Positions 24,743 through 57,741 of a stretch of 64,000 nucleotides of DNA are shown piece after piece (within the stretch, counting starts at the first letter, position 1; every line of letters starts with the position of its first letter). The stretch is taken from NCBI GenBank assembly GCA_011390935.1, contig JAABRL010000002.1, forward strand, positions 59,277 to 123,276, in the 5' to 3' direction. Below the pieces are notes generated by a model. The model did not search any database and was not told the DNA's origin. It was given only the letters and a program-made list of their open reading frames with translations. The stretch is from Gemmatimonas sp. (lineage in GTDB: Bacteria; Gemmatimonadota; Gemmatimonadetes; Gemmatimonadales; Gemmatimonadaceae). The translations under genes were made by a program, and so were the position numbers.

Positions 24743-26104
24743 ATGCCTGCTGCCCATACGGTTACCCGAGGGCTCGACCTTCCCATCGCCGGCGCTCCTG
24801 CGCAGGTGATCAGCGCGGCGCGTGCCGTGACGCAGGTCGCCCTGCTCCCCGCCGATCATCTCGGCACCAAGCCGCGTCTGCGCGTGCAAGTCGGAGACGA
24901 CGTGGTGCTCGGCCAGCCGATCTGGCAAGATCGTACCCACGAATCCATCGTCGTCGTGGCGCCAGGACACGGTCGCATCGCTGCCATCAATCGCGGCGAG
25001 CGCCGTGTCATCCAAAGCATCGTCATCGACCTCGCCACGAGTGAACCGACGGCGACGCCGATGGCATCGTGGACGGCGCGCGCAGCCACCGATCGGGGCG
25101 CACTGCGTGCGCTGCTGCTCGAGGCCGGTCTGTGGGTCGCGTTTCGCACGCGGCCGTTCAGTCACGTGCCTGCACCGGACAGTGATCCGTCGGCGCTGTT
25201 CGTGAACACGATGGACACCAACCCGCTCGCGCCGAACGTCGAGGTGATCATCGCCGAACGTCGTGCGGACTTCGATCGTGGACTCGCCGCGCTACGCACG
25301 CTCACCGATGCGCCGCTGTATGTCGGGCGTGCCGTCGGTTCGACCGCCGGTGACGGGGTGAAGGGCGTGACCACCGCCGATTTTGCGGGAAAGCATCCGG
25401 CCGGCATGGTCGGCTACCATATCCACACGCTCGCCCCCGTTTCGCGCACGCGCATTGCGTGGCACATCGGGGCGCAGGACGTGATTCGCATCGGGCAGCT
25501 CGTGAACACCGGCACGCTCGATGTGTCGCAGGTGGTCGCGCTCGGCGGCCCGCCGCTCACGAAGCCGCGTCTGGTGCGCACGCGACTGGGCACGAGCATC
25601 ACTGAACTCATGGAGGGCGAAATGACCGCGCCTTCCACTCCGCATGAACTCGCACCGCGCGTGATCAGCGGGTCCGTGCTCACTGGGCGGCAGGCGACCG
25701 ATCCCGTGTTCGCCTTCCTGAGCCGCTTTCACCAGCAGATCAGCGTGCTGCCCGAAGTCCGCGTGCGCTCGTTTCTCGGCTGGCTGGGACTGCGTGCCCC
25801 GCGCTACTCGGCGATGCCCATCTACGTGGGTGGTGGCGCGTCGGCCGGGTTCGACACGCGCATGCACGGCGGCCCGCGCGCGATGGTGCCCATTGGCGCC
25901 TACGAGCGCGTGATGCCGATGGATCTCATGGCCACCCATCTGCTGCGCGCGATCGCGCTCGGCGATCCGGAGTGGGCTGAAGAACTGGGAGTCCTCGAAC
26001 TCGATGAGGAAGACGTGGCGCTCTGCAGTTATGTCTGTCCGGGCAAGGCCGACTTCGGCGGTGCGCTGCGTCGCGTGCTCGAAACCATCGCGGCGGAGGC
26101 CTGA
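24743..26104 (+). CDS. nqrA: Na+-translocating NADH:quinone reductase subunit A
   Basis: A 453-residue protein, the peripheral subunit of Na+-NQR on the cytoplasmic face. Recognised by the opening GLDLPIAGAP, GDDVVLGQPIWQDR, FVNTMDTNPLAPNVE, HPAGMVGYHIHTLAPV and the C-terminal CSYVCPGKADFGGALR. It is the first gene of a complete eight-gene operon, and nqrB starts directly after its stop (TGA-GTG). I see no Shine-Dalgarno sequence at the start codon. Confidence 0.96.
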   Translation: MPAAHTVTRGLDLPIAGAPAQVISAARAVTQVALLPADHLGTKPRLRVQVGDDVVLGQPIWQDRTHESIVVVAPGHGRIAAINRGERRVIQSIVIDLATSEPTATPMASWTARAATDRGALRALLLEAGLWVAFRTRPFSHVPAPDSDPSALFVNTMDTNPLAPNVEVIIAERRADFDRGLAALRTLTDAPLYVGRAVGSTAGDGVKGVTTADFAGKHPAGMVGYHIHTLAPVSRTRIAWHIGAQDVIRIGQLVNTGTLDVSQVVALGGPPLTKPRLVRTRLGTSITELMEGEMTAPSTPHELAPRVISGSVLTGRQATDPVFAFLSRFHQQISVLPEVRVRSFLGWLGLRAPRYSAMPIYVGGGASAGFDTRMHGGPRAMVPIGAYERVMPMDLMATHLLRAIALGDPEWAEELGVLELDEEDVALCSYVCPGKADFGGALRRVLETIAAEA

Positions 26105-27310
26105 GTGAAGCCGCTTCGCGACCTGCTCGACAAGATCGAGCCGCACGTGCAGAAGGGCGCACGCTTCGAGAAGCTGTATTCCTCGTACGAAGCGCTCGAC
26201 ACGTTCCTGTTCACGCCGTCCGATCGCACGCACACCGGACCGCACGTGCGCGATGTGATCGATACCAAGCGGGTGATGCTGCTGGTGGTGTACGCGCTGA
26301 TCCCGTGCATTCTGATGGCCATGTTCAACACCGGCTACCAGATCCATCGGGTGGTGGAGCAGGGCGGTACGGTGCTCGACAACTGGCAGAGTGCGGTGTA
26401 CGCCATGACGGGGCTGCCGCTGGCCACGAGTTCGATCGTGGGCTCGATGGTGCACGGCGCGCTCTACTTCGTGCCCGTGCTCATCGTGACGCTGTTCGTG
26501 GGCGGCAACTTCGAGATGCTCTTCTCGACGGTGCGCGGCCATCCGGTCAACGAAGGGTTCCTCGTCACGGGCATGCTGATTCCGCTCATCATGCCGCCCG
26601 CCGTGCCGCTCTGGCAGCTCGCGATCGGCGTGGCGTTCGGTATCGTGATCGGCAAGGAGATCTTTGGCGGTACGGGGATGAACTTCCTCAATCCCGCGCT
26701 CACGGCGCGCGCGTTTCTCTTCTTCGCGTATCCCGCGTCGCTCTCCGGTGAAGTCTGGGTGGCGGCGACGCCGGCGGACGGCCGCTCCGGTGCGACCTGG
26801 CTCGCGTCGTGGGCCGAGGGAGCGGGCCACCTGGGCGACTTCACCTGGATGGATGCATTTCTCGGGCTCATCCCCGGCTCCATGGGCGAAACGTCGGTGC
26901 TCGCCGTGCTGATCGGCGGCGTGCTGCTGCTGCTCACGCGAGTTGCGGCCTGGCAGACGATGCTCGGCGTGACCGTGGGCACGCTTGTGACCGCGGCCGC
27001 CCTCAATGCGATCGGTTCGGACACGAACCCGATGATGTCGCTGCCCGCGCACTGGCACCTGCTGCTGGGCGGCTGGGCGTTCGGCACGGTGTTCATGGCC
27101 ACCGATCCGGTGTCGTCGGCCTTCACATCCACCGGCAAGCTGTGGTACGGCGTCGGGATCGGTCTGCTGTGCGTGCTCATTCGCACGGTGAACCCGGCGT
27201 ATCCGGAAGGCATGATGCTGGCGATCCTGTTCATGAACATGTTCGCGCCGCTGATCGACCACGCGGTGGTTTCGGCGAACATTTCGCGGAGGGCCGCCCG
27301 TCATGGCTGA
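26105..27310 (+). CDS. nqrB: Na+-NQR subunit B (covalent FMN, Na+ channel)
   Basis: A 401-residue integral membrane subunit with a GTG start directly after the nqrA stop. The FMN-attachment motif SGAT is present, with Thr231 (codon 26795-26797) as the residue flavinylated by ApbE. About ten membrane segments follow the family pattern (KEIFGGTGMNFLNPALTARAF, FMATDPVSSAFT, NPAYPEGMMLAILFMNMFAPLIDH). It carries FMN and riboflavin and forms the sodium path. It overlaps nqrC by 8 bases. Confidence 0.97.
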   Translation: MKPLRDLLDKIEPHVQKGARFEKLYSSYEALDTFLFTPSDRTHTGPHVRDVIDTKRVMLLVVYALIPCILMAMFNTGYQIHRVVEQGGTVLDNWQSAVYAMTGLPLATSSIVGSMVHGALYFVPVLIVTLFVGGNFEMLFSTVRGHPVNEGFLVTGMLIPLIMPPAVPLWQLAIGVAFGIVIGKEIFGGTGMNFLNPALTARAFLFFAYPASLSGEVWVAATPADGRSGATWLASWAEGAGHLGDFTWMDAFLGLIPGSMGETSVLAVLIGGVLLLLTRVAAWQTMLGVTVGTLVTAAALNAIGSDTNPMMSLPAHWHLLLGGWAFGTVFMATDPVSSAFTSTGKLWYGVGIGLLCVLIRTVNPAYPEGMMLAILFMNMFAPLIDHAVVSANISRRAARHG

Positions 27311-28094
27311 GATCAAGCGTGACTCGCCGCTGTACACCATCGGCTTTGCCGCGCTGGTGTGCATCGTGTGCGCGCTGCCGATTGCGGGAGCCGCGGTGGC
27401 GTTGCGCCCCAAGCAGGAGCTCAACGCCCGCCTCGATCGCCTCGGCAAGGTGCTCGCAGTGGCCGGTCTGATGGAGCGGAACGAAAAGCTCACCCCGGAG
27501 GAGCTCGAAGCGCGCTTCGATGCCTCCGTGGTCGCGCGCGCGATCGACATGCGCACCGGCGAAGCGGTCGATACGATCGACACCAAGGCGTACGATCAGC
27601 GGCGTGCGGCGCGTGATCCGCTGATCAGCAGCACGGCGCCGGAGAACGCGGCGCGCGTGCTGCGTGTCCCGAACGTGGCTGTGGTGTACGAGGTGATGGC
27701 GGCCGATACGCTGCAAGCGGTGATCGTGCCGATTCAGGGGTACGGCCTCTGGTCCACCATGTACGGCTATCTGGCGCTTGCGCCCAATGCCACGACGGTG
27801 AGCGGCATCACCTTCTACGAACACGGCGAAACGGCTGGCCTCGGCGGCGAGATCGAAAATCCGCGCTGGCAGGCCAGGTGGATCGGCCGTGAAGCCTTCA
27901 ACGACCAGGGGGACGTGGCGCTCGAGGTGATCAAGGGCGCCGCGGGCCCCGCGGCAACCGATCCATACCGCGTGGATGGGCTCTCCGGCGCCACCATTAC
28001 CGGCCGCGGAGTGAGTGCCACGCTCGATTTCTGGCTGGGCCCGAACGGGTTCGGCCCCTATCTCGACCGACTGCGCGCCACGCGCGCGAGGTGA
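27303..28094 (+). CDS. nqrC: Na+-NQR subunit C (covalent FMN)
   Basis: A 263-residue protein with one N-terminal membrane helix (residues 9-34) and a periplasmic FMN domain. The motif SGATITGRGV gives Thr231 (27993-27995) as FMN acceptor. The typical segment GYGLWSTMYGYLALAP is present. The gene overlaps the end of nqrB and is followed by a 54-base gap before nqrD. Confidence 0.97.
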   Translation: MAEIKRDSPLYTIGFAALVCIVCALPIAGAAVALRPKQELNARLDRLGKVLAVAGLMERNEKLTPEELEARFDASVVARAIDMRTGEAVDTIDTKAYDQRRAARDPLISSTAPENAARVLRVPNVAVVYEVMAADTLQAVIVPIQGYGLWSTMYGYLALAPNATTVSGITFYEHGETAGLGGEIENPRWQARWIGREAFNDQGDVALEVIKGAAGPAATDPYRVDGLSGATITGRGVSATLDFWLGPNGFGPYLDRLRATRAR

Positions 28095-28148
28095 CGCCGT
28101 AATGCGCAACGCACCAACGAGCGCCGCATGGCGCCGAGGAGGGCTCTG

Positions 28149-28832
28149 ATGCTCGACAAGCAATCGCGCAGCGCGCTGATGGATCCGCTGTTCGACGACA
28201 ATCCGATCGCCAAGCAGGTTCTCGGCATCTGCTCCGCGCTCGCGGTCACGACTCTCATGGCACCGTCGTTCGTGATGTGTCTGGCCGTGACCGGCGTGCT
28301 GGTGGCCAGCAACGTGTCGATCAGCCTGATTCGGAAGTGGATCCCGTCGAGCATTCGCATCATCGTGCAGCTCACGGTCATCTCGTCGCTGGTGATCATC
28401 ACCGACCAGCTGCTCAAGGCGTACGCGTACAGTGTATCGCGTCAGCTGTCGGTGTTCGTGGGGCTCATCATCACCAACTGCATCATCATGGGGCGCGCCG
28501 AAGGCTTCGCGATGCAGAACGGGCCGAAGGCCAGCTTCTTCGATGCCGTGGGCAACTCGGTCGGCTACAGTCTCGTGCTGCTCTTCGTCGCGGCCTTCCG
28601 CGAGCTGTTCGGTTCGGGATCGTTGTTCGGTATTCGCATTCTGCCGCTGGTGAGCGACGGCGGCTGGTATACGCCCAACGGCCTCATGGTGCTTTCGCCG
28701 GCCGCGTTCTTCCTGATCGGCGGCCTCATCTGGGCGCTGCGCACCTGGAAGCCCAAGCAGATCGAGGTGGAACCGGTGGTGGAGATCGATCACGCCGTGG
28801 TCGAACCGGCACAGCCCCGTCAGGCGGCCTGA
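28149..28832 (+). CDS. nqrD: Na+-NQR subunit D
   Basis: A 227-residue, six-helix membrane subunit. The start at 28149 (MLDKQSRS) is set by GAGGAGGG five bases upstream; an in-frame ATG at 28128 is less likely. C28 (LGICSA) and C111 ([18 protein letters not shown]) are the cysteines that, with those of NqrE, hold the intramembrane iron centre. The C-terminal tail is longer and more acidic than the family minimum. Confidence 0.97.
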
Positions 28833-28839
28833 GGAGACC

Positions 28840-29457
28840 ATGGCGAGTCACTATCTCAGTCTGTTCGTGCGCGCCGTGTTCGTGGAGAACCTCGCGCTCG
28901 CCTTCTTCCTCGGCATGTGCTCGTATCTCGCCGTCTCCAAGCGCGTGAAGACGGCGATCGGACTCGGCATTGCCGTGACGTTCGTGCTCACGATCACCGT
29001 GCCGCTGAATCAGCTGCTGCTGCAGCGCGTGCTCAGTGAGGGGTCGCTGACGTGGCTGCATCCGTCGCTGGCCACGGTCGATCTGTCGTTCCTGGTGTTC
29101 CTCAGCTTCATCGGGACCATCGCCGCGCTGGTGCAGGTGGTGGAGATGGTGATCGACCGCTATGCGCCGGCGCTGTACGCGGCGCTGGGTGTCTTCCTGC
29201 CGCTGATCGCGGTGAACTGCGCGATTCTCGGTGGCAGTCTGTTCATGGCAGAGCGTGACTACACGTTCGGCGAAAGCGTGGTGTTCGGCGCCGGTGGCGG
29301 CATTGGCTGGCTGCTGGCCGTCGTCGCGCTGGCGTCGGTGCGCGAGAAGCTGCGCTATGCGAATCCGCCGGCGGCGCTGCGCGGGCTCGGACTCACCTTC
29401 ATGGTGACCGGCCTGCTCGCGATCTGCTTCATGGCATTCGCCGGCATTCAACTCTGA
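28840..29457 (+). CDS. nqrE: Na+-NQR subunit E
   Basis: A 205-residue, six-helix membrane subunit, inverted homologue and partner of NqrD, with a GAGGAG ribosome site just before the ATG. C27 ([10 protein letters not shown]) and C127 ([12 protein letters not shown]) are the iron-site cysteines. The [15 protein letters not shown] segment is typical. Confidence 0.97.
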
Positions 29458-29469
29458 CGACCTGACCAC

Positions 29470-30693
29470 ATGCTCACGATCGTGGCCGGCCTCGGCACCT
29501 TTCTGATTCTCGTCCTTGCCCTCGTGGCGCTGCTCATGGTGGCGCGCGCGCGTCTCGTGCAGAGCGGCATGGTGACGATTCTCGTAAACGATGATCCGAA
29601 CAAGGCGATGCAGGTGCCGAGCGGATCCACCCTGCTGAATACGTTGGCGGATCGGCAGATTTTCATTCCGTCGGCGTGTGGTGGGAAGGGCTCCTGCGGG
29701 GTGTGCAAGGTGGAAGTGCACGCCGGCGGCGGTGCGTTGCTGCCCACGGAAACCGGTCATGTGAAACCGGGCGAAGCGCGACGTGGCGTGCGGCTGTCGT
29801 GCCAGGTGAAGGTGAAGGAGGACATGTCGATTCACATCGAGGACGATGTGTTCGGCGTGCGCCGCTGGAAGTGCAAGGTGCGCTCCAACGACAACGTGGC
29901 CACCTTCATCAAGGAGCTGGTGCTCGAGCTGCCCGAGGGGGAAACGGTTCCGTTTCGCGCCGGCGGGTACATTCAGATCGAGGCCCCGCCGCACGTGGTG
30001 CGCTACAGCGAGTACGATGTGCCGGCCGAGTACCGGGAAGACTGGGAGACGTTCGGGCTGTTCAAGCTGAGCTCGACCGTCACCGAGCCGGTGACGCGTG
30101 CCTACTCCATGGCGAACTATCCGCTGGAGTCGGACATCATCATGCTCAACGTGCGCATCGCCACGCCGCCGCCGCGCACGACCGGTCTGCCGCCGGGTCT
30201 CATGTCGTCGTACATCTACAGTCTCAAGCCGGGTGACGAAGTCACGATCTCCGGACCGTACGGCGAGTTCTTCGCGAAGCCCACGCAGAACGAGATGTGC
30301 TTCATTGGTGGTGGTGCCGGCATGGCGCCCATGCGCTCGCACATCTTCGATCAGTTCCGCCGCGTGCGCACCGATCGCAAGGTCACCTTCTGGTACGGCG
30401 CGCGGTCGCTTCGCGAAGCCTTCTACGTGGACGACTTCGACACCATCGCCCGCGAGAACGAGAACTTCACGTGGACGCTTGCGCTGTCGGAGCCGCGCCC
30501 GGAGGACAACTGGACCGGCTCGAAGGGGTTCATTCACAACGTGCTGTACGAGGAGTACCTGTCCAAGCATCCGGCGCCGGAGGATATCGAGTACTACCTC
30601 TGCGGCCCGCCGATGATGCTGCAGGCGTGCATGAAAATGCTCGACAGTCTGGGCGTACCGCGCGAGAACATCGCCTTTGACGACTTCGGGTGA
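29470..30693 (+). CDS. nqrF: Na+-NQR subunit F (NADH dehydrogenase, 2Fe-2S and FAD)
   Basis: A 407-residue protein with an N-terminal membrane anchor (residues 3-26). The plant-type 2Fe-2S site is C70, C76, C79 and C111 ([11 protein letters not shown] and LSCQV). The FAD motif RAYSMANY, the NADH motif [12 protein letters not shown], and the C-terminal CGPPMM are all present. It takes electrons from NADH and feeds the other subunits. Confidence 0.97.
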
Positions 30694-30694
30694 C

Positions 30695-31774
30695 ATGATC
30701 CGGCGAGCCCCGCGGTGGTGGCTCGTACTGGCGGCGCTCACGGGGCTGAGCGCGTGGTTGTACCTGCGGCCCGTGCGCGCGAGCGACGGGCCGTTGGCGT
30801 TCGACGGCGCCACCATGGGCACCACGTATCGTGTGGTGCTTGGCGGGCGTGCCGATGGCAAGACCGTGACGGCCGAGCAGCTGCGCGCCCTGCAGCGCGG
30901 CGTCGATTCGCTGCTCGTCGGCGTGAACGCGAGCATGTCCACGTACGACGCCACATCGGAGCTGTCACGCTTCAATGCGCGCATCGACACCACGGCGGTT
31001 CCGATTTCCGCGCCGCTGGCCGAGGTACTGCGCGTGTCGCTGGCAGTGCACGCGGCGACGGATGGCGCGTTCGATGTGACGGTGGGGCCGCTGGTGGACG
31101 CGTGGGGGTTCGGGCCAGCCGCGCGGCCGGCAGACGCGTTGCCGCCATCGCTGCGTGATTCGTTGCGGGCCTTCGTGGGTAGTGCCTTGCTGGAGGTCAA
31201 CGGCGAATCGCTGCGCAAGCGTGATCCGCGTGTGCGCGTGGATCTGTCGGCGGTGGCCAAGGGATACGCCGTGGACGTGGTCTCCGACTGGCTGTCGGCC
31301 AATGGCGCGGCCGATCACCTCGTGGAGATTGGCGGCGAAATGCAGGCGCGCGGCCGCAATGTGCGCGGAGAGCCGTTTCGGGTCGGGATCGAGGACCCGG
31401 ATCCCGACCGTCGGCGCGTGCGCTTCGCCATCGCGTTGTCGGACCGAGCGCTCGCGTCGTCGGGCAACTACCGCAACTTCGTGGACCTCGATGGGGTACG
31501 ATATGCGCACACGATCGATCCCGTGCGCGGTGCCCCGGTGCAGCACACGCTGCTGGCGGTGAGCGTGTTGCACGCCCGCTGCGCCGACGCGGACGCCTGG
31601 GCCACGGCCCTCATGGTGGTAGGCCCGGAGCGCGCTTGGGCGCTCGCCGAGGCGAATGACCTCGACGTGGGCTTGCTCATCAGCACCGGTCCGGGAGAGG
31701 TTTCAGAACGCTTCACGGACGGGTTTCGCGCCGCCGTGCTGCCATCCCCGCTTCAAGGAACGCCGTCGCCATGA
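30695..31774 (+). CDS. apbE: FAD:protein FMN transferase (ApbE), NQR-associated
   Basis: A 359-residue protein starting at ATG 30695, one base after the nqrF stop. An N-terminal membrane anchor (WWLVLAALTGLSAWLYL) places the enzyme in the periplasm. Family motifs are FDGATMGTTYRVVL, VDLSAVAKGYAVD, LVEIGGEMQARG, and SGNYRNF...YAHTIDPVRGAPV. It attaches FMN to the SGAT threonines of NqrB and NqrC. It overlaps nqrM by four bases. Confidence 0.95.
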   Translation: MIRRAPRWWLVLAALTGLSAWLYLRPVRASDGPLAFDGATMGTTYRVVLGGRADGKTVTAEQLRALQRGVDSLLVGVNASMSTYDATSELSRFNARIDTTAVPISAPLAEVLRVSLAVHAATDGAFDVTVGPLVDAWGFGPAARPADALPPSLRDSLRAFVGSALLEVNGESLRKRDPRVRVDLSAVAKGYAVDVVSDWLSANGAADHLVEIGGEMQARGRNVRGEPFRVGIEDPDPDRRRVRFAIALSDRALASSGNYRNFVDLDGVRYAHTIDPVRGAPVQHTLLAVSVLHARCADADAWATALMVVGPERAWALAEANDLDVGLLISTGPGEVSERFTDGFRAAVLPSPLQGTPSP

Positions 31775-55037: not shown

Positions 55038-55664
55038 CTACCGACGCAATGGGAGTCGGATACCGACCATCGCGGAACGCGTCTGCGCCGTGCCCTCGCG
55101 CCGATGCTCGAAGTGCAGACGGGCTTCCGCGAACAGCGCGAGTGCGCCTGCGTTCGCGTCGAGCCCAATGCCGAGCAGGGTCGTCGGCACCACCACCGAA
55201 GTCGTCTGCGAAAACGAGATCGTGGGAAACGTCGGGTCGGTGACCACGGCATCGAGGCGCGTGCTCACTCGTGCGACACCGCCACCGGCGACCAGATACG
55301 GGAGCCGATGTCGGCGTGTACTGGCCACCCGCACCGCGAGGTCGCTGGCCACCGTCTGCACATCGCCGGTAGTCGAGCTGGCGGCTGCGGCGCGCAGCGG
55401 CTGGTGCGTGAACCGGAGTTCGGTGCGCGCGCGCACGGCGAGACCTCCTCGTGTCGCAAGAGGCACGGTCAGCGTGGCGGCGACGGCGGGCCCGACTGTG
55501 GTGGCGACCGTGCCTCCGCGTGTGTGCGCGACGCCGGCGCCAGCCGAAAGTTGCGCGCCGTCATTCGTAGTGGCGTCTTGCGCGCTGAGCGTGCCGTGCG
55601 CAACGGTCGTCGCGAACAGCATGGCGACCAGGTACGACGACCTGGCAATCTCTGCTCGGCGCAT
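55038..55664 (-). CDS. Predicted outer-membrane beta-barrel protein
   Basis: A 208-residue protein with a signal peptide (YLVAMLFATTVAHGTLSAQ). Alternating beta strands follow (AVAATLTVPLATRGGLAVRARTEL, TTSVVVPTTLLGIGLDANAG, LFAEARLHFEH) and the last strand is SAMVGIRLPLRR. Size and pattern fit an eight-stranded barrel, although the usual terminal aromatic residue is absent. Third gene of the fibre operon; its start is next to the lipoprotein stop (TAG-ATG). Confidence 0.78.
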   Translation of the reverse strand: MRRAEIARSSYLVAMLFATTVAHGTLSAQDATTNDGAQLSAGAGVAHTRGGTVATTVGPAVAATLTVPLATRGGLAVRARTELRFTHQPLRAAAASSTTGDVQTVASDLAVRVASTRRHRLPYLVAGGGVARVSTRLDAVVTDPTFPTISFSQTTSVVVPTTLLGIGLDANAGALALFAEARLHFEHRREGTAQTRSAMVGIRLPLRR

Positions 55665-56132
55665 CTATCGCGTGCTCGTGCCGAGCACAGCCGGTGAGAC
55701 GTGGAACGCCGCCTGCGGCGAGACGCCGAGCGCCTGGGACGTTGGCGCGAGCGCCAAACGGATCGCAGAGACCTCGGCGGGATCGATGGTCCGCTGGCTC
55801 GATGCCGCGGCAAGGGCGTCGTATGTCTGCACGAGGGCGAATCGCGCAGCGGGCGCGTCCTGCGCCTCGATGGCCGCGAACAGTGCGGCCACCGGTCGAT
55901 CCAGTGAGGCGCGGACGGGCACGGCGAGTGTGGGGGTGATGCGCGTCGAGATGTCGCCGAGCGCCGTCAACGCGTTGAGCGAGACGTCGGCGCTGAGTGG
56001 GCCGCATCGGGTTTCCGGTGTGCAGACGTCGGGGCCGACGCTTACGGCATCACCACGACAGCCCGCCAGCGCGAGCGCCGTCGCGCACGCGAGGGAAACG
56101 GAACGGCGCGAGGGGGAGCGGAATCGAAGCAT
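55665..56132 (-). CDS. Lipoprotein of the fibre operon
   Basis: A 155-residue protein from ATG 56132 (MLRFRSPSRRSVSLACATAL) with lipobox LAGC. The mature part has one possible disulfide (VCTPETRCG) and is otherwise helical (ISTRITPTLAVPVRASLDRPVAAL, AARFALVQTYDALAAAS). I do not recognise a family. It lies seven bases after the fibre gene and directly before the barrel gene, so it may anchor or escort the fibre. Confidence 0.8.
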   Translation of the reverse strand: MLRFRSPSRRSVSLACATALALAGCRGDAVSVGPDVCTPETRCGPLSADVSLNALTALGDISTRITPTLAVPVRASLDRPVAALFAAIEAQDAPAARFALVQTYDALAAASSQRTIDPAEVSAIRLALAPTSQALGVSPQAAFHVSPAVLGTSTR

Positions 56133-56139
56133 GTGCCGG

Positions 56140-57741
56140 TTACCGGGGATTGGAGCGGACGTCGAGCAGTGCCTGCAGCTGCAGTTCCAGCGCACGCACA
56201 CGGGCCTGCAGCTCGACGACGGTGGCGTGAGTGTCCGCGGAACGCACATCGAGGGCCTGCACGCCGGCGAGCGTCACGCCCGCGAGATCTCCACTGTTGA
56301 TCGTGGTGGAATCGCCACTCAGCGCGAAGGCCGCGTCCCAGTCCTGGGCCATGGGTCCGATGTGGCGAATCGACGATCCCTGTGCCTTGTACCTCCACGA
56401 ACTCACGGGGACACGACGGAGTGAGGTCAGCACCGACTCGCCGTCCACCGCGCGAAAGTCTGCCTTTTTGGTTCGATCCGAGACGATGTCCCACCCACTT
56501 CCGCCCGAGGCGAGCCGTGCACCCACGGAGTTGTTCACGTCGGTGTAGAACGTGACGCCGCCGATGCCGCGCCCCACGAACTGCAGCGCACCGTTGGCCT
56601 TGAGCGGTTGCGCACCAAACTCCGCGCCCCCGTCAGAGATCACGATCGCGCCCATCTGCCCATCCGAGTCGGCGCTCCGGCCGATCACGATGGATCCGAA
56701 CCCGCTCGCCACACTGAGGGCGCCAATCGCGATGCTGCCCCCGTTCATGGCGCGGGCGCCGGTGCCGATGGCAATGGTGCGCGGCGCGCTCGCGGCGGCC
56801 TGTTCGCCGATGGCGAAGGCGCTTTCGTCCGACGCGGCGGCGCCGTTCCCGAGCGCAACCGCATGGTCACCGCTTGCGACCGTATTGGAGCCCAGCGCCG
56901 TCGAATACCGACCAACGTTGGGGGCGTCCCACATATCGCCAGCCACGGTGCCAGCCCGTAAGGCGGACAGACCGGGAATCCACATGAGTCGGGTGCCCGC
57001 GCCGCTGACGGGGGCGGGGGCACCGAGGCTCACGGTGCCTGTGACCGCGAAGCCGGAGAGCCCTGCCGCGCGAGCGCCGCTGGCGAGCAGATACTGCGGA
57101 TGGTCGTCCGACGCGAGGTTGCTGAGCGCCGTGTGATCGGTCGTTCCTGGCGCACCGGCGGCGCCTGGCACGCCCGCAGGCCCCGGTGCGCCCGCTGCGC
57201 CGTTGGCTCCGGCGGGGCCGGGATCACCCGGGTCGCCCTTCGGCCCTGGCTCGCCTTGCGCTCCCGCCTCGCCGGGATCTCCCTTGGCGCCCGGCTCGCC
57301 CTGTGTACCGGCCGGACCCATCTCGCCCGCGATCCCTTGCGGACCGGAATCGCCCTTCGCTCCCGCTGGTCCGACGGCGCCCGTCGCGCCGCTGTCACCC
57401 TTCGCCCCTTCGGGGCCTGTGGGGCCGACCGGTCCAACGAGGTTGAGCGTGAGTCGGCTGTGCGAGGGCGCGACGCAGCTCGTGGGCGTCCCGGGACCAC
57501 CGACACGATACGCCGTGCCAGAACCCGGCACGATACAGAGATCAATCGCTTCCGTGTGCTGCGAGTGCGCGGCGCGAGCAGCGCGCGAGCTGCTGTCTGA
57601 TACGCTCGTATCTCGCGAGGCGCCTTCGTTGACACGTTGTGCCCACGCCGAGGCCGGCAGGCAGACAAGCGAGACGAGGACGGCGACGGCGAGTACGCGA
57701 CGCGGCTTCGCGACGCGGTCGGACATATGGTGCAGTGGCAT
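56140..57741 (-). CDS. Collagen-like fibre protein with YadA-like head and S74 self-cleaving chaperone
   Basis: About 533 residues from ATG 57741; ATG 57726 (MSDRVAKPRRVLAVAV) is also possible. A signal peptide ends SAWAQ. Residues 103-201 are 33 unbroken Gly-X-Y triplets (GPVGPTGPEGAKGDSG type). Next is a phage tail-fibre-type segment (DHTALSNLASDDHPQYLLASG). Head repeats as in trimeric autotransporters follow near 277-355 (ALGSNTVASGDHAVALGNGA). The C-terminal 113 residues are a peptidase S74 intramolecular chaperone with Ser421 and Lys425/Lys426 (VSDRTKKADF) and RHIGPMAQDW. The product is probably a trimeric surface fibre that trims itself after folding. Confidence 0.92.
   Translation of the reverse strand: MPLHHMSDRVAKPRRVLAVAVLVSLVCLPASAWAQRVNEGASRDTSVSDSSSRAARAAHSQHTEAIDLCIVPGSGTAYRVGGPGTPTSCVAPSHSRLTLNLVGPVGPTGPEGAKGDSGATGAVGPAGAKGDSGPQGIAGEMGPAGTQGEPGAKGDPGEAGAQGEPGPKGDPGDPGPAGANGAAGAPGPAGVPGAAGAPGTTDHTALSNLASDDHPQYLLASGARAAGLSGFAVTGTVSLGAPAPVSGAGTRLMWIPGLSALRAGTVAGDMWDAPNVGRYSTALGSNTVASGDHAVALGNGAAASDESAFAIGEQAAASAPRTIAIGTGARAMNGGSIAIGALSVASGFGSIVIGRSADSDGQMGAIVISDGGAEFGAQPLKANGALQFVGRGIGGVTFYTDVNNSVGARLASGGSGWDIVSDRTKKADFRAVDGESVLTSLRRVPVSSWRYKAQGSSIRHIGPMAQDWDAAFALSGDSTTINSGDLAGVTLAGVQALDVRSADTHATVVELQARVRALELQLQALLDVRSNPR
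57139..57435 (-). repeat. Collagen-like Gly-X-Y repeat region
   Basis: Ninety-nine codons encode 33 consecutive Gly-X-Y triplets without interruption, rich in GDS, GEP, GPA and GAP. The period is 9 bases. Nine-base repeats of this kind are length-variable by slippage. Confidence 0.9.

Follow-up and report, generated by a model that had tools for sequence, protein, structure and literature searches.

The conserved unit at this locus is two genes, not three: a secreted fibre that begins with a two-cysteine domain, here called CVP, and a small lipoprotein with a helical domain, encoded in the adjacent gene. Alone, the fibre is of a known kind, whereas the module formed by CVP fibre and helical lipoprotein is a new form of the fibre-plus-accessory-lipoprotein theme. 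The near-constant pairing of the two, as read from genome sequence, suggests that interchangeable surface fibres are held or escorted in a manner not recognised before. The strict genomic pairing of CVP domain and lipoprotein turns the question of how Gram-negative-type bacteria keep anchorless collagen-like or tail-fibre-like proteins on their surface into a directly testable binding question, and in a phylum that has been little studied it gives two groups of hypothetical proteins a candidate shared role.

The fibre, its lipoprotein and their surroundings

The window, a stretch of 64,000 nucleotides from a Gemmatimonas sp. genome (4.45 Mb, 92% complete), carries three adjoining open reading frames (ORFs) on the minus strand at 57741..55038, just where a first-pass annotation had placed a collagen-like self-cleaving fibre, a lipoprotein and a beta-barrel. 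The fibre gene (56140..57741, minus strand) encodes 533 aa, with an alternative start at 57726 that would give a protein beginning MSDRV, and its product is laid out as signal peptide, CVP domain, collagen, linker, YadA-head repeats, S74 domain and a C-terminal coiled-coil-like tail. The collagen stretch (57139..57435, minus strand, residues 103-201; Pfam PF01391) consists, as annotated, of 33 uninterrupted Gly-X-Y triplets and matches the Pfam Collagen model above its cut-off (E 2.6e-16); the annotated tail-fibre-type segment spans about residues 202-220 (DHTALSNLASDDHPQYLL). The signal peptide and the YadA-like head repeats also stood up to analysis, the latter (56662..56913, minus strand, about residues 277-360) matching PF05658 above cut-off (E 9.5e-13), and their homology is confirmed by the match of a profile of this region (A1) to the solved Yersinia invasin/YadA structure 1p9h (E 2.7e-16). 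Pfam detects no YadA anchor barrel at the C-terminus of the fibre, which is made up of the S74 domain and the coiled-coil-like tail.

The feature that proved the most informative in the locus was absent from the first-pass description. This is the conserved CVP domain of about 50 aa, which lies at the N-terminus of the mature fibre ahead of the collagen (57406..57558, minus strand; LCIVPGSGTAYRVGGPGTPTSCVAPSHSRLTLNL). In an alignment of its copies (A6), mature N-termini show the motif C[YIF]V[PV]xSGTxYR[VI]...C....H..[FL]xW or something close to it; the two conserved cysteines are probably disulphide-linked. The A6 profile finds the domain in the window's own genome with an E of 1.4e-20, the window's copy being among the rows of the profile.

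At the opposite end of the fibre, the Peptidase_S74 intramolecular chaperone (56326..56481, minus strand, residues 421-472; PF13884) scores E 1.4e-9 and 38.5 bits against a Pfam cut-off of 22, and 42.8 bits in the genome search. Ser421, Lys425 and Lys426 are present as annotated, and Ser421 (codon 56479-56481) with Lys426 (codon 56464-56466, both on the minus strand) forms a putative S74 dyad. The known dyads of endoNF (S911/K916) and MyRF (S587/K592) share a spacing of +5 (PMC8326128), which is also that of the fibre. By a simple pattern check, S....K is kept in 125 of 127 S74 stretches; one stretch (L115) carries Cys where the catalytic Ser would be expected (CDRNQK). A phmmer search of the S74 region of the fibre against the PDB gave no match.

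The lipoprotein gene (P0002; 55665..56132, minus strand) starts 7 bp past the fibre stop, within the eight bases annotated, and encodes 155 aa comprising the lipobox LAGC (Cys25), a disordered linker and a helical domain. In an AlphaFold model from four sequences, the segment that follows the lipidated cysteine is of low confidence and leads into a confident helical block (residues 51-140, pLDDT 76-91), with four main helices at residues 52-135; together with family profiles, the model delimits the helical domain (55722..55973, minus strand) as the portion conserved beside CVP genes. The lipoprotein matches nothing in Pfam (E up to 1), NCBIfam or PHROG, and Foldseek found no match to its model in the PDB with an E up to 0.001; the best-ranked structures, Xcc0516 (2gsc) and the phage protein Avd (4dwl), were judged to be generic helical bundles and set aside.

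The S74 and collagen stretches do resemble phage fibres, as they would if the fibre were a domesticated phage tail fibre lying among prophage remnants. However, the fibre bears a signal peptide, its matches in annotated phages cover the S74 or the collagen part alone and at most 19% of its length, neither the CVP domain nor the lipoprotein was found in 80 viral loci, and the lipoprotein had no match in 50,697 phage records. The neighbouring genes are metabolic and envelope genes rather than phage genes (a PQQ dehydrogenase, a cytochrome-like protein, a fatty-acid desaturase and an esterase), indicating a chromosomal location, and the phage structural genes that the first-pass annotation had named as neighbours that would count against its reading are absent from the vicinity. 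On these grounds a phage origin was rejected, and domestication seems to us scarcely credible. Scans for promoters and terminators found none. Elsewhere in the window (24806-31774), a gene cluster resembling the operon of an Nqr-type sodium-pumping quinone reductase, with an ApbE-like gene, was picked out by eye.

The third reading frame and the three-gene order

The third ORF, a putative small outer-membrane beta-barrel (P0003; 55038..55664, minus strand; 208 aa with a signal peptide), begins directly after the lipoprotein stop codon. Its identity as a barrel is the weakest element of the first-pass description. Strong beta-type amphipathic periodicity was seen in 30 windows of the protein as compared to 7.1 +/- 4.9 in shuffles, and a profile of two sequences gives weak matches to proteins that in turn match OMP_b-brl (PF13505); the ORF itself has no significant match in Pfam, NCBIfam or PHROG, and none to PF13505.

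Nor did the same three-gene order, for which a search across Gemmatimonadota had been proposed, recur. In a set of 60 genomes that combined the window's own with 59 relatives, only a sister species of the same genus (a Gemmatimonadaceae MAG, JALHNZ010000004.1) yielded homologues of lipoprotein and third gene outside the window. Lipoprotein and barrel are 36% identical between the two species, and the order in the sister species is lipoprotein-barrel-fibre (an S74 fibre), as against fibre-lipoprotein-barrel in the window. Because the same three families are co-located in both, the genes have not come to lie together by chance. Over 295 genomes of the class, however, the profile of the third ORF recovered the window, the sister species and two weak, partial matches of OMP_b-brl type; with one convincing relative, the sister species' copy, the barrel was rejected as a conserved partner and, being confined to two genomes, is regarded as a local addition. 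Most S74/YadA-head fibres lack both the lipoprotein and the barrel, the very pattern that the annotation had named as contrary to its proposal of a distinct three-gene export system.

That proposal, in which the barrel would serve as the exit pore of a three-component system, thus did not survive, and we consider it very improbable. The three families do occur together in two species, in differing order, but no other CVP or S74 locus seen has the barrel; its roughly 180 mature residues suggest some eight strands, which would leave it too narrow for a chain bundle, and a pore that admits a folded trimer would need a longer protein; and its AlphaFold model, built from two sequences with a pLDDT of 32, lends no support. 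What did stand is the idea of a dedicated chromosomal fibre with a lipoprotein of its own, an association kept across the class. In two other genera, a secreted protein takes the place of the barrel after the lipoprotein (L116:8391-9353, L117:8453 onwards, L168:2779-3672 and L011:5708-6550), and three of these four proteins carry a PEP-CTERM-like signal at the C-terminus.

Pairing of the CVP domain with the lipoprotein

Reading of neighbour genes indicated that small lipoproteins adjoin a subset of S74 fibres. A first, full-length lipoprotein profile, made from seven such fibre neighbours and searched over the 295 class genomes, gave eight held-out matches with E < 1e-6 (G029, G204, G151, G236, G076, G246, G279:C130 and G247:C331), all eight adjoining CVP genes; in the first four, the CVP neighbour is collagen-like and lacks S74. 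This profile included signal peptides, and its matches at E 1e-5 to 1e-3 looked spurious; nearly all of these were eliminated by a mature-domain profile (A10) from which the signal peptide had been removed. Of the 24 matches that A10 returned in the same genomes, 23 fell at CVP loci, a proportion that mainly measures specificity since 22 of the matches are training sequences. Counted by genome, 19 of the 20 with the helical domain are among the 30 with a CVP domain (hypergeometric P 3e-21, not independent of training). Absences in the 295-genome search fall short of proof because a limited number of candidates was scored per genome.

The reciprocal test starts from the CVP domain, which occurs at 38 loci in those 30 genomes. 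At 32 of the 38, the window's among them, the gene next to the one with the CVP domain in its mature N-terminus encodes a lipoprotein with the helical domain. The helical profile identifies 24 of these, among them G147:C32, with the lipoprotein gene immediately downstream, and G247:C347, with a fragment at a contig end; seven have the domain as the C-terminal part of an Ig-type lipoprotein, and G058 was recognised solely with the full-length profile. The helical part of the Ig-type lipoproteins follows a BIG2 domain on its C-terminal side and aligns with the helical family in hhalign at E 1e-4, as compared to 0.18 for the best among 30 controls with shuffled columns; the profile behind these seven loci was built from CVP neighbours, and only G275 lies outside its training set. 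Among the remaining six, G261 and G065 adjoin lipoproteins without detectable similarity, G247:C63 is cut by a contig end, and no lipoprotein neighbour was found at G061:C3, G061:C7 or G118. Two helical matches lie away from known CVP loci: G276 (weak, E 2.9e-4) and an orphan in G251 (L171:5703-6305), a helical-domain-like gene for which the 12 kb examined contained no CVP gene. Downstream placement of the lipoprotein gene is seen in the window and in G076; most loci have it upstream of the CVP gene, and in G026, G147, G260 and G247 the two are divergent. Such variation in order and strand favours functional coupling over inherited synteny. Two CVP loci have a Ser/Thr kinase-like gene next to the lipoprotein (L010:9127-11694 and L209:7349-10000), and the sister species has an ECF sigma factor-like gene there as well (L010, 11691-12281).

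The S74 tip had also been a candidate for the feature tracked by the lipoprotein and was rejected, since half of the held-out loci lack S74, and no helical lipoprotein of this kind was found at S74 fibres without CVP (G048 and family f8). The lipoprotein, paired where S74 is missing and missing where CVP is missing, thus follows the CVP N-terminus. S74 domains are present in 23 of the 295 genomes, and the predicted self-cleaving S74 tip is an optional module of these fibres rather than a defining part. In family f8, S74/YadA-head fibres without CVP occur in tandem, with up to 10 S74 matches per genome, and adjoin a different lipoprotein of about 300-360 aa (L133:4078-5052, L134:4822-5898, L131:3995-5020 and L130:4064-4963), possibly an independent fibre-lipoprotein pairing.

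The CVP domain heads varied secreted proteins, some with collagen and S74, some with collagen alone and some with neither. One of the collagen-like proteins that lack S74, a protein of 1601 aa beside its lipoprotein in G151 (L166:1389-6194), has one of the longest Gly-X-Y arrays seen, and G236 carries five CVP collagen-like copies in a row; the short CVP proteins of G086 and G116, without collagen or S74, are still paired with a lipoprotein. In G013, a secreted protein of 2412 aa or more (L013:2-7240) directly follows the CVP fibre.

Outside the phylum, the CVP profile had no match in 40 non-Gemmatimonadota genomes with S74 fibres, in a search run without a positive control, and gave three weak matches in 199 Acidobacteriota. 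Two of the three show a related form, C..N.NGG[LM]R.V....C.N.E..ISWN, preceding collagen, so CVP is probably, judging by these sequences, one branch of a broader two-cysteine domain from which collagen-like proteins of bacteria start. No lipoprotein was recognised within roughly 1.5 kb on each side of these two, and coupling to the lipoprotein may be peculiar to Gemmatimonadota. On collagen-like proteins in Gemmatimonadetes, a literature search gave only a lysyl oxidase survey.

The reading that we prefer, and to which we give about an even chance, is a two-gene module in which the lipoprotein docks or escorts the N-terminus of the CVP fibre at the outer membrane while S74 folds the trimer and releases itself by cleavage. 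Both proteins would pass the inner membrane by their signal peptides, as seen in sequence; the lipoprotein would be lipidated at Cys25, its helical domain extending on a flexible linker or, elsewhere, on a bacterial Ig-like domain. From the gene pairing, the helical domain could bind the CVP domain of the fibre, and the lipoprotein could escort the three chains in export or hold the fibre base at the outer membrane. By analogy with its family, S74 would trimerise, fold the YadA-head/collagen stalk and then release itself by a cut at Ser421 using Lys426. For passage through the outer membrane the fibre would take a general route, type II secretion being the most likely (three secretins are encoded in the window's own genome), rather than the small barrel; the barrel here and the PEP-CTERM-like protein elsewhere would be lineage-specific extras.

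Two alternatives assign the lipoprotein a narrower role. It might function in the inner membrane, or in the periplasm, purely as an export helper that keeps three chains in register and does not anchor the finished fibre. There is precedent in SadB, a small lipoprotein whose gene neighbours that of a trimeric adhesin and whose absence lowers surface display (PMC3953254), and gene pairing alone does not separate a helper from an anchor; yet the lipoprotein also accompanies the short CVP proteins of G086 and G116, for which register should be less of an issue. In enterobacteria, an Asp after the lipidated cysteine retains lipoproteins in the inner membrane. Cys25 is followed not by Asp but by R-G, a point against a helper role insofar as this general rule carries over to another phylum, and overall we find the role unlikely. 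A regulatory pairing, in which the lipoprotein would sense the state of the envelope and control fibre expression, has a counterpart in FAD-I of Fusobacterium, a lipoprotein that regulates the RadD adhesin and alters the radD transcript level (PMC7023056), and the kinase-like and sigma factor-like genes beside the sister-species locus would fit it. But no regulator is conserved across CVP loci, and the strict tracking of one N-terminal domain suits a binding partner better, so that we regard regulation as distinctly improbable.

A bolder form of the docking reading, which we advance with less confidence than the two-gene module itself, is modular display: one lipoprotein docking domain, with its four helices carried on a linker or an Ig spacer, would capture a single N-terminal CVP adaptor fused to interchangeable shafts and tips, among them short collagen stubs, the collagen protein of 1601 aa and self-cleaving S74 tips of phage type. 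If true, this would be a modular fibre-display system in Gemmatimonadota not described before, and an anchoring principle for diderm fibres distinct from autotransporter barrels and sortase.

Comparison with known systems

Secreted S74/YadA-head fibres are often annotated as "tail fiber domain-containing protein". Such fibres also occur in Bacteroidota, Acidobacteriota, Myxococcota, Chloroflexota, Planctomycetota and others, and share with the window fibre the C-terminal half of YadA-head and S74; in contrast to it, they showed no CVP domain in the 40 genomes searched and no helical lipoprotein in the loci examined. With the S74/ICA proteins (endoNF tailspike, T5 pb1 and MYRF) the fibre has in common an S74 domain above cut-off and the Ser/Lys pair at +5, but here the predicted S74 sits on a signal-peptide-bearing collagen/YadA-head fibre encoded on a bacterial chromosome. 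The collagen-like protein Lcl of Legionella is surface-associated and type II-secreted, and its N-terminal amphipathic helix binds SDS micelles (PMC11162425). Like the fibre, it comprises a signal peptide, a short N-terminal region, a collagen stalk and a C-terminal trimeric domain; the two differ at the base, where Lcl has its amphipathic helix and the fibre a two-cysteine domain paired with a lipoprotein, and against the NCBIfam Lcl model (NF046116) the fibre scores 66 bits for a cut-off of 500, with only the collagen part matching.

The YadA-type head repeats are shared with trimeric autotransporters (type Vc), although the anchor barrel that these carry on the same chain is missing from the fibre. 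A parallel to the pairing comes from this group: SadB is a lipoprotein that aids surface display of the trimeric autotransporter adhesin SadA in Enterobacteria (PMC3953254). In both cases, a small lipoprotein gene stands beside the gene of a trimeric surface fibre, and the YadA-type repeats of the window fibre are typical of such adhesins. The window fibre, however, has no YadA anchor barrel and its pairing follows the CVP domain; SadB is trimeric and MATH-like, whereas the window lipoprotein is predicted to be all-helical and matches no Pfam family, features that set the two lipoproteins apart.
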